A stretch of 64,000 bases of DNA from assembly GCF_026625845.1 (NCBI RefSeq), contig NZ_CP113066.1, forward strand, positions 2,046,001 to 2,110,000. Reading direction: 5' to 3'. This DNA comes from Agrococcus sp. SL85. Its GTDB lineage: Bacteria; Actinomycetota; Actinomycetes; Actinomycetales; Microbacteriaceae. Made by a program: the position numbers and the translations under genes. Position 1 is the stretch's first letter. Every line of letters starts with the position of its first letter. Below, in pieces: positions 10,744 through 18,607 of this stretch. The notes beneath the pieces were generated by a model, which worked only from the letters and a program-made list of their open reading frames with translations, searched no databases and had not been told where the DNA came from.

Positions 10744-10796
10744 CTCGATCCGCTGGACCGCTCGCCGATCCGGCTGTGGTCACCTGCGGCCCCGCC

Positions 10797-10849
10797 TGTG
10801 GTCGCTTCGCGTCCACCGCAGGCCTGCCGGAGGGCGCGAACCGACCACA
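10797..10849. terminator. Long inverted repeat between convergent pabB and SRPBCC genes
   Basis: TGTGGTCGCTTCGCG (10797-10811) pairs with CGCGAACCGACCACA (10835-10849) with one mismatch, and the loop contains the palindrome GCAGGCCTGC. Another TGTGGTC copy lies 22 bases upstream at 10775. Position between two facing genes suggests a bidirectional terminator, although there is no U-tract. Confidence 0.6.
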
Positions 10850-10864
10850 CCCGGGCCGCGCGGC

Positions 10865-16916: not shown

Positions 16917-18071
16917 ATGGCGGCGGCGAGCATCCCGAAGATCGGGTGGGACCAGATCTCGCCCGCGCCCGTCGTGCTCGTGTTCGGCAAGGAGGGCTTC
17001 CTCGCCGATCGCGCCGTGCAGCGCCTCAGGGCGCTGCTGCTGCAGGAGGATCCGGAACTCGAGGTCAGCGACCTCGATGCCGGCCAGTACAGCGACGGCG
17101 CGCTCGAGCTGCTCGCGAGCCCGTCGCTGTTCGACGAGCCGCGCCTCATCCGCGTCGCGAACGGCGTGAAGGCCACCGACGCCTTCATCGAGGACGGCCT
17201 GCGCTACCTGCAGGCGCCCGTCGACGGCACGACGCTCATCATCCGCCACGACGGGTCCACGGTGCGCGGCAAGAAGCTGCTCGACGCGATCCGCAGGACG
17301 CCCGGCGCGCTCGAGGTCGTCTGCCAGCCGCTCGGCCGCGGCGACATGATCCCCTTCGCGCGCAACGAGCTGCGGCTGCTCGAGCGCGACGCGACGCCCG
17401 GCGCCATCGCGGCGCTCGTGGACGCCTTCGCGAGCGACATCGCCGAGCTCGCGAGCGCGATCCGCCAGGTGGCGGTCGACACGGAGGGGCAGATCACCGA
17501 GCAGACGGTGCGCACCTACTACGCCGGCCGCGTCGAGACCACGGCCTTCGCGGTCGTCGACGCCGTCATCGCCGGCGATGTCGCACGTGCGCTCGTCACC
17601 CTCCGCCAGGCGGTCGCGACGGGCGCCGATCCCGTGCCGATCGTCGCCGCGTTCGCCATGCGGTTCCGGCAGCTCGCGAAGGTCTCGGGCGCACAGGGCG
17701 GCGACGGCCAGGCGGCGCGCGCGCTCGGCATGCAGGAGTGGCAGCTGCGGAACGCCCGCCGCGACCTGCGCGGCTACACCGACGCCACGCTCTGCGACGC
17801 GATCGAGCAGATCGCCGTCGCCGACGCGGCCGTCAAGGGCGCCGAGCGCAGCCCCGCCCACGCGGTCGAGCGCCTCGTGCGGCAGGCTCGCCGCCCGCGC
17901 GGCCTGACCCCGCCGGCGCACCCCCGACCTGCCCGCGGGCGACGCGTCCGCGATCGATCGGCGACTCCGGCCACCGTGCGGCGCCCCCTGCCCCCGATTG
18001 GCGACCTCTGCCACCGATTGGTGCTATCTGCCATCGACTGGCGCCTTCTCGTCGACTGTGGCGCCGTTTGA
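16917..18071 (+). CDS. holA: DNA polymerase III subunit delta, with odd C-terminal extension
   Basis: Clamp-loader delta subunit that opens the beta clamp. Residues 1 to about 325 match HolA: VLVFGKEGFLADRAV at the start, a RuvA-like helical middle and a C-terminal AFAMRFRQLAKV ... EWQLRNARRDL region. The family usually ends soon after AVERLVRQARR. Here the frame runs on for about 55 residues rich in Arg and Pro, reading the 20-bp repeat array. A stop in the next frame at 17905-17907 would give 329 residues, a normal length, if one base in the CGCCGCCCGCGC run is extra, so a frameshift near 17890-17900 is likely. Function certain, 3' end uncertain. Confidence 0.88.
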   Translation: MAAASIPKIGWDQISPAPVVLVFGKEGFLADRAVQRLRALLLQEDPELEVSDLDAGQYSDGALELLASPSLFDEPRLIRVANGVKATDAFIEDGLRYLQAPVDGTTLIIRHDGSTVRGKKLLDAIRRTPGALEVVCQPLGRGDMIPFARNELRLLERDATPGAIAALVDAFASDIAELASAIRQVAVDTEGQITEQTVRTYYAGRVETTAFAVVDAVIAGDVARALVTLRQAVATGADPVPIVAAFAMRFRQLAKVSGAQGGDGQAARALGMQEWQLRNARRDLRGYTDATLCDAIEQIAVADAAVKGAERSPAHAVERLVRQARRPRGLTPPAHPRPARGRRVRDRSATPATVRRPLPPIGDLCHRLVLSAIDWRLLVDCGAV

Positions 18072-18261
18072 CGACCATTCGGCGCCACTCAGCGTGAGAC
18101 GTCGCCGATCACGAGCCACTCGTCGCCACTCATGGGCGATTCGCCGCCACTCGCGAGCCCTTCAGCGCCAGTCAGCGTGAGACGTCGCCGATCAGCAGTC
18201 GTTCGTCGCCACTCAGCGCCAGACCTCGCCGATCACGAACAGATCGGCGCCGCTCGTCGTG
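17951..18261. repeat. Degenerate tandem array, about 15 units of 20-21 bp
   Basis: Consecutive units can be aligned by eye at a 20-21 base period, for example ACGACCATTCGGCGCCACTC, AGCGTGAGACGTCGCCGATC (present twice, 18091-18110 and 18172-18191) and AGCGCCAGACCTCGCCGATC. The first half has variants such as CCACCGATTGGTGCTATCTG. The common core is GGCGCC or GTCGCC at a fixed place in each unit. It fills the space between convergent holA and rpsT. Units are not identical and have no unique spacers, so this is not a CRISPR array. No protein-coding gene is evident apart from the holA read-through. Confidence 0.75.
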
Positions 18262-18302
18262 AGGCGACCCCGGCCGACGGCGCGAGGAGCCCCGGGGACG
18301 AC

Positions 18303-18330
18303 GAAGGGGACCCCGCCAGGGGTCCCCTTC
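18303..18330 (-). terminator. rpsT intrinsic terminator
   Basis: GAAGGGGACCCC and GGGGTCCCCTTC form a perfect 12-bp stem with loop GCCA, 16 bases beyond the rpsT stop on its strand. No U-tract follows. Confidence 0.8.
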
Positions 18331-18346
18331 GGTCAGACGGCTCGGA

Positions 18347-18607
18347 TCAGAGCGCTGCGACCTGCTTCGCGATGGCCGACTTGCGGTTCGCGGCCTGGTT
18401 GCGGTGGATCACGCCCTTCGAGACGGCCTTGTCGAGCTTCTTGCCCGCGATCGCGAGCTTCTGCTCGGCGACGGCCTTGTCGCCCGCGGCGACGGCCCTG
18501 CGAGCCTCGCGCACGGCGGTGCGGAGCTCCGACTTCACGGCGCGGTTGCGCTGCGTCGCCTTCTCGTTGGTGAGGATGCGCTTGATCTGCGACTTGATGT
18601 TCGCCAC
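18347..18607 (-). CDS. rpsT: 30S ribosomal protein S20
   Basis: The 86-residue basic helical protein of the small ribosomal subunit binds 16S rRNA early in assembly. It starts [17 protein letters not shown] and contains [15 protein letters not shown], both diagnostic for S20. The GTG at 18607 gives the family N-terminus and normal length, with AAGGA upstream; the longer open frame to 18871 is not coding. A promoter at 18763-18735 gives an untranslated leader of about 120 bases. Confidence 0.97.

Follow-up and report, generated by a model that had tools for sequence, protein, structure and literature searches.

The tandem repeat array between holA and rpsT in Agrococcus sp. SL85 is probably a dispersed copy of a repeat family partnered with a DUF559-type nuclease-like gene, in a REPtron-like arrangement in which the nuclease would spread the repeats. 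Judged from sequence comparison, a nuclease-like protein with dispersed repeats of its own suggests an unrecognised partnership in actinobacteria. The array lies within a stretch of 64,000 nucleotides of the SL85 genome (labelled G000), hereafter the window.

The initial annotation described about fifteen degenerate units of 20-21 bp between convergent holA and rpsT genes. Indeed, fifteen such units span 17956-18255 (matches with at most three mismatches, chosen by their 20-21 bp spacing; the loose match list also contains chance matches off that spacing). What had not been described is that the units run in two directions, six rightward and nine leftward, and converge on a 55-bp centre. The features of the locus are as follows.

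17956..18065, plus strand: left arm, GAGTGGCGVC-like words at 17956, 17976, 17996, 18016, 18036 and, as the central unit, 18056, spacing 20.
18081..18255, minus strand: right arm, nine inverted units at 18081, 18101, 18122, 18143, 18164, 18184, 18205, 18225 and 18246, spacing 20-21.
18036..18090, no strand: 55-bp centre (20+15+20), the meeting point of the arms, from the inverted-pair pattern and the single-stranded DNA fold.
18089..18111, plus strand: exact 23-base repeat, second copy at 18172-18194.
16917..18071, plus strand: holA (DNA polymerase III delta), whose reading frame enters the left arm.
18347..18607, minus strand: rpsT (ribosomal protein S20), convergent with holA.
18302..18331, no strand: perfect 13-bp inverted repeat with a 4-base loop between the array and rpsT, a candidate terminator.

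Autocorrelation of 17951-18261 against shuffled controls upheld the proposed period: peaks stood at lags 41 (z 5.9), 20 (z 5.4), 10 (z 4.9) and 21 (z 4.1), and none of 2000 dinucleotide-preserving shuffles attained any of them. Taken separately, the left arm gives its strongest signal at lag 20 (z 7.6); in the right arm lag 41 is the strongest (z 7.1). The raw fraction of matches at lags 20/21 is not special to the array, other 311-bp segments attaining about 0.45, perhaps through codon periodicity, 21 being a multiple of 3. The GGCGCC/GTCGCC core named in the initial annotation is conserved, but it is the inner half of a longer word of 10 bp (GAGTGGCGVC, or the complement), which forms the conserved portion of the unit beside a drifting 10-bp spacer. 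The exact repeat, first read as 20 bases recurring after 81, measures 23 bases at a distance of 83. The centre of the window copy has one mismatch and folds as single-stranded DNA at z -3.3.

Since rpsT lies on the minus strand, the holA-rpsT pair is convergent, as had been annotated. Relatives of the flanking gene are Agrococcus species. Compared by eye with A. terreus, holA carries one extra base near its 3' end (17880-18071), with the frame running about 50 codons into the array; the base may be a sequencing error or real. The hairpin at 18302-18331 is, from its sequence, a probable terminator.

The layout is unlike CRISPR, as the initial annotation held: the spacers of any one arm are related to each other, and the units stand inverted about a centre. 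The arrays had no matches in phage or plasmid records, so that we rejected CRISPR and an origin in phages or plasmids alike; a single viral-contig match was a simple CACTCGCGCC repeat. No Rfam family scored above its gathering score, and the two sub-threshold matches had E values of 0.14 and 0.88. The BOX elements of pneumococcus are modular, with tandem inner units that vary in number, features that the present array would share.

The array belongs to a family dispersed over the chromosome. BLAST of the array against its own chromosome gave 12 places, the window array included, and the pattern GAGTGGCGNC-N6-16-GAGTGGCGNC matched 35 times, against none in a reversed control. Pattern and BLAST places together define at least 16 arrays, most with arms pointing inward (a few chance clusters given by the loose array-reading script were discarded); two-armed arrays point inward, with stray units reversed in a few. 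Words on the same strand are spaced by 20 (59 pairs) or 21 (4 pairs), then near 40 and 60, with two aberrant values, 35 and 58, and one of 81. When the gap between inverted pairs was left free from 10 to 40, it was exactly 35 in all 13 matches in SL85 (the window copy, with its mismatch, falls outside these exact matches), in 7 of 7 in A. terreus (genome G023, identified by sequence identical to L039) and in 3 of 3 in genome G008. The constant gap in SL85 gives the centre its 20+15+20 geometry. Four centres from SL85 and A. terreus fold as single-stranded DNA at z -1.8 to -4.3; for two G008 elements and the Tsukamurella and Arthrobacter elements described below, z was -7.7 to -9.9.

Adjacent units in SL85 differ at 0.077 of sites in the word versus 0.467 in the spacer (43 pairs); in the other genomes the values are 0.081 versus 0.246 (359 pairs). 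Positions 1-6 of the word had served to find the units, and the independent positions 7 and 8 are 99% C and 100% G in SL85. A short conserved word held in phase would fit recognition by a protein, in line with the phased protein-binding array that the initial annotation entertained. Ordinary tandem repeats arising from replication slippage, with neither partner nor function, would explain why units are alike within an arm and why copy number varies between species, but not why the word is conserved while the spacers drift or why the length of the centre is constant at many sites, and they leave the link to a gene, presented below, unexplained. This slippage-only reading is already disfavoured, and we consider it very improbable.

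The arrays sit at the 3' ends of genes. Neighbouring genes were called with a simple gene finder, for which the window served as training sequence; by the orientation of these neighbours, 51 arrays fell into 21 convergent, 29 tandem and 1 divergent gaps, as opposed to 10, 35 and 22 among 67 background gaps (longer than 80 bp, at the SL85 loci examined); the 51 are not independent, some being orthologous and a few adjoining the nuclease-like partner gene. There is thus an excess at convergent junctions, where the initial annotation had proposed to look. Such placement, convergent and tandem, could mean that the array is an element useful to the host, acting as a bidirectional terminator, an mRNA stabiliser or a roadblock that insulates convergent genes. 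The inward-pointing arms would suit that role, since transcripts from both sides then read the units in the same sense, and REPs are similarly placed according to passages of PMC3733652. However, a separate hairpin exists besides the array, the same junctions occur in many relatives without a detected array, and complementarity between left-arm and right-arm spacers does not exceed chance; altogether we regard a host-useful 3'-end element as distinctly unlikely.

The ilvA-greA junction speaks to the insulator that the initial annotation suggested. An array was detected there solely in SL85 among 24 Agrococcus genomes (the detector requires three GAGTGG-type units, and the G012 locus is truncated by a contig end), and the seven relatives inspected have the hairpin alone, which argues against a required insulating element. 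The simplest reading of these sequences is a gain in the SL85 lineage. The small paired hairpins once proposed for the arms fared no better. Identity between left and right spacers was no higher within than between loci in any of four sets: 0.404 versus 0.423 (11 loci, p 0.85), 0.393 versus 0.420 (8 loci, p 0.86), 0.451 versus 0.533 (6 loci, p 0.98) and 0.468 versus 0.481 (10 loci, one common to the preceding set, p 0.70). As spacers of opposite arms do not match, the arms do not form one long hairpin, and we rejected that candidate.

Across Agrococcus the family is widespread. The looser two-unit pattern is present in 21 of the 24 genomes, with 0 to 67 matches each, although several of the low counts are no higher than in the reversed control, which itself reached 13 in G021, presumably because some array spacers fit the reversed pattern. 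Fifteen genomes are array-rich (at least 13 matches), and counts of GAGTGG underestimate clades using another word. Arrays downstream of rpsT were detected in 12 of 24 genomes, to which G016 adds one by eye with the word GAGCGG. The centre varies by clade: it is 55 bp in SL85, A. terreus and G008; several G013 arrays have an overlapping palindrome as their centre, and examples from G010, G011 and G017 read word-4-word. Among the loci compared, 9 of 14 array loci of A. terreus share an array-bearing junction with SL85, and five of those nine have a TCAC-type word versus CGNC in SL85. A motif-agnostic survey at lag 20, which is weak, gave per 400 kb one peak in SL85, three in G007 and three in G004 (two of the latter at one locus and one doubtful); 800 kb of G006 gave three peaks, none array-like by eye.

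A broad family pattern search matched 59 of 349 genomes, in many of them no more often than chance would give. Outside Agrococcus, among the places listed, short runs occur in genus g50 (G072, G141) and genus g85 (G314), next to CCCTTCGACAAGCTCAGGGACC-type repeats. In g50, which belongs to the Microbacteriaceae, 20-bp tandem units are joined to the CCCTTCGACAAGCTCAGGGACC repeat (L105, L106), and these units may have a partner gene of their own.

In four genomes (G011, G013, G016 and G002) plus and minus arms stand about 1.1 kb apart around one gene. The SL85 counterpart lies at the pdtaR locus, roughly 200 kb from the window array.

G000:C1:2262264-2263139: partner gene at the pdtaR locus, 292 residues.

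The partner protein of about 290 residues matches DUF559 (PF04480) with 25.8 bits in SL85 and 21.7 in G002, against a cut-off of 20.6. It scores 34.7 and 28.7 bits, respectively, with REase_MTES_1575 (PF18741), below the cut-off of 38.2, and PF18741 is precomputed on most homologs among the 120 matches listed. Passages of PMC3710099 count the MTES_1575 domain among novel REases of Vsr type. A profile built from 28 relatives matched the PDB entry 3hrl, 'Endonuclease-Like Protein', at E 5e-5, and more weakly PvuRts1I (4oky, E 0.027) and the 'Mobile intron protein' 3r3p (E 0.06); gamma-tubulin chains came next at E 0.13, likely by chance. Residues invariant in the 28 proteins include E189, D222, E233, H239 and D249, and E189, D222, H239 and D249 may correspond to the EDxHD motif of Vsr-fold nucleases. 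On these profile matches the C-terminal part is a nuclease-like domain of DUF559/MTES_1575 type with a putative Vsr fold; the N-terminal half is putatively an AbiEi-like DNA-binding part, as the names of homologs indicate. The likeness to Vsr-like/EDxHD nucleases and DUF559 proteins (3hrl, 3r3p) resides in the profile matches, whereas the Agrococcus protein differs from them in its added N-terminal half and its link to dispersed cognate repeats. NCBIfam contains no family covering the protein. PADLOC gave no significant full-length model (best E 0.0027, over 40 residues), and with no convincing match there we set aside a role in anti-phage defence.

Gene and repeats go together. A homolog of the partner, 58-100% identical, is present in all 15 genomes with at least 13 pattern matches; the plus arm lies upstream of it in 15 of 15, and a minus arm was detected downstream in 11. 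In one of these genomes, G010, the gene and pdtaR are on separate contigs. Three further genomes (G007, G008 and G014) carry a homolog at the pdtaR locus, enclosed by repeats of GATTGG type that show a clear 20-bp period solely in G007. In the gene tree the 15 copies form one group (85/94) and these three another (100/99), and the groups are not joined (2 changes on the tree; 0% of 200 bootstrap trees had 1). Because the two groups are not one clade, a common locus need not mean simple orthology.

In G004 a broken copy of the gene sits between GAGCGG-type repeats; arrays are nonetheless retained in that genome. The pdtaR locus of G005, G006, G012, G019 and G022 carries neither gene nor array, the assemblies of G012, G019 and G022 being incomplete. 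In G006 and G019 a single palindrome takes the place of the gene, and that of G006 belongs to the family of the L234 paralog, treated below. The pdtaR-paaI junction of G019 (L261, 2170-2232) bears a 24+15+24 palindrome where relatives carry the nuclease-like gene. GreA of G006 and G019 is 92% and 90% identical to that of array-bearing genomes, and their closeness suggests that partner gene and array were lost in both.

For 13 of 14 genomes, the class of word in the arms around the gene agrees with the one that prevails at the other loci, which is what recognition in trans would predict. Ten of the 14 share the common class CG, and three of the four others match; five of the 14 have just one other locus, and G001 and G004, with no units on one side, were dropped. 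The mismatch is G018, whose gene arms read TC versus CG in the single other array read.

The strongest rival to a spreading nuclease is an autoregulator with many stray sites: the protein would bind repeats beside its own gene, and the dispersed arrays would be a regulon or titration sites, no cutting-driven spread being involved. The arms do stand immediately 5' of the gene, conservation of the word is strict, and P0117, a homolog with 36% identity, bears the name AbiEi-family antitoxin domain protein; AbiEi antitoxins bind operators. However, the position of the arrays at gene 3' ends, with 1 of 51 between divergent promoters, the similar elements on both flanks of the gene and the invariant acidic residues retained in the nuclease-like domain all count against it. 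We judge an autoregulator unlikely.

The favoured nuclease-repeat partnership extends to paralogs of the gene. We scored flank pairs by local similarity, in either orientation, between the 350 bp upstream and the 350 bp downstream of a gene; in 1773 control genes the 99th percentile was 22.1 and the 95th 17.5. From 30 family genes offered, G022 was excluded for a short flank, and 27 of the remaining 29 exceeded the 99th percentile and 28 the 95th (G019b, 16.5, and G019, 20.5, fell below 22.1); 17 of the 29 are pdtaR-locus copies, so that the independent cases are fewer. Inspection of 13 other family members revealed palindromes on both flanks of most, some of them 20+15+20 by eye; the G022 member had no palindrome in its upstream flank. 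Two further full-length paralogs met in the surveyed stretches scored 37 and 27, and two pieces of a broken G006 paralog 12 and 15. Six paralogs had been chosen before reading: four surpassed the 99th percentile, one barely (22.5), L384 lay between the 95th and 99th (19.5), and L379 had palindromes downstream only. As a separate observation, a nuclease paralog at G000:C1:1799841-1800710 was matched in three pieces and is an apparent pseudogene.

Among the top-scoring controls, as judged from their translations, L372 resembles the same kind of protein and L279 resembles an IS110 transposase; others bear a different dispersed repeat. At L279, L304 and L324 (G006, G007 and G004), several genes, including an IS110-like one, have repeats of the form GTCTCGTGACGCG...CTCGACC on their flanks, which would be a separate REP-like family.

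Elements of several paralogs recur within the genome parts compared. That of a G007 paralog recurs at two more sites, that of L234 in G006 at four, the pdtaR junction included, and that of an SL85 paralog at one, in the window itself.

10791..10855, no strand: lone palindrome where two genes converge; it represents a second family (TGTGGTCGC type) and has a 23-bp match to the flank of a paralog.

From that match, the likely partner of this element is the nuclease-like paralog at G000:C1:1540900-1541745. The G004 element and one SL85 element showed no recurrence in the parts compared, and the L383 palindromes had one weak site there. GGTACC-type repeats at the rpsT junction of G006 match the flanks of the L383 paralog in exact words of 20-21 bp (best E 3e-6). 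The rpsT junctions of G012 and G022 (L129, L130) both carry a large palindrome with arms like CACACTTCTCGGTC, possibly another such family in a different clade.

A tblastn search of a plasmid collection returned five records, four of them long matches covering 77-97% of the query: Arthrobacter ERGS1:01, two Arthrobacter StoSoilB13 records and Tsukamurella tyrosinosolvens. All four have matching palindromes on both sides, scoring 24.5, 24.5, 34 and 43.5 against the Agrococcus-control value of 22.1; a partial match in Nonomuraea had no flanking palindromes. The Tsukamurella element was found at 18 places on 7 records of the strain and an Arthrobacter element at 11 on 2 records, and since palindromes are counted on both strands, the real sites number about half of these.

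REP-type repeats have been linked to a single enzyme family, that of the RAYT transposases, which are proposed to copy REPs (passages of PMC3733652; outline of PMC8266576). From the same parts of these sources, the likeness lies in short multicopy palindromes that occur mainly in convergent or tandem gaps and also flank an enzyme gene. Dispersed intergenic palindromes that are rare between divergent genes, and an enzyme gene flanked by such repeats, are likewise found in Agrococcus, though the enzyme is different: it is nuclease-like, not a Y1/HUH transposase, and the arms consist of tandem 20-bp units. A search with PF01797 (Y1/HUH, RAYT) found no match in the 24 Agrococcus genomes, whereas the control search matched 5 of 14 known genomes; a RAYT partner is thereby rejected, and the Agrococcus system is not a REPtron by descent. 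TIRtrons, as presented in passages of PMC3733652, also place a gene between inverted repeats, some of them dispersed, but their TIRYT is a tyrosine transposase. Among the open-licence PMC papers listed by searches, a set without preprints, no description was apparent of the repeats in Agrococcus or Microbacteriaceae, of a DUF559/MTES_1575 link or of an AbiEi/RAYT-like equivalent; the sources include passages of PMC3710099, PMC9879509 and PMC3733652 and the outline of PMC8266576.

We infer that the nuclease-like protein binds, cuts and spreads its repeats. It would recognise the 10-bp word recurring every 20 bp and nick or cut the palindromic centre or the arms, and repair from another copy would then carry the element to new places and lengthen its arms. 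Copies would persist where they are least harmful, downstream of genes, and paralogous genes would drive parallel families, each with palindromes of its own.

A wider proposition seems to us evenly poised: that a family of Vsr-like nucleases, spread over several actinobacterial orders, powers many selfish palindromic repeat lineages in parallel. The REP/RAYT arrangement would then have been invented a second time around an unrelated enzyme, and lineages sharing one genome would compete for gene-end sites. G006, which has no GAGTGG gene, carries a palindrome of the L234 family at the pdtaR junction and L383-type repeats at the rpsT junction. If an unrelated nuclease does act in this way in actinobacteria, unassigned palindromic repeats of GC-rich genomes could find an explanation. 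A common protein family of 'unknown function' could also gain a role, and the co-evolution of enzymes with their cognate repeats could be tested directly on such pairs.
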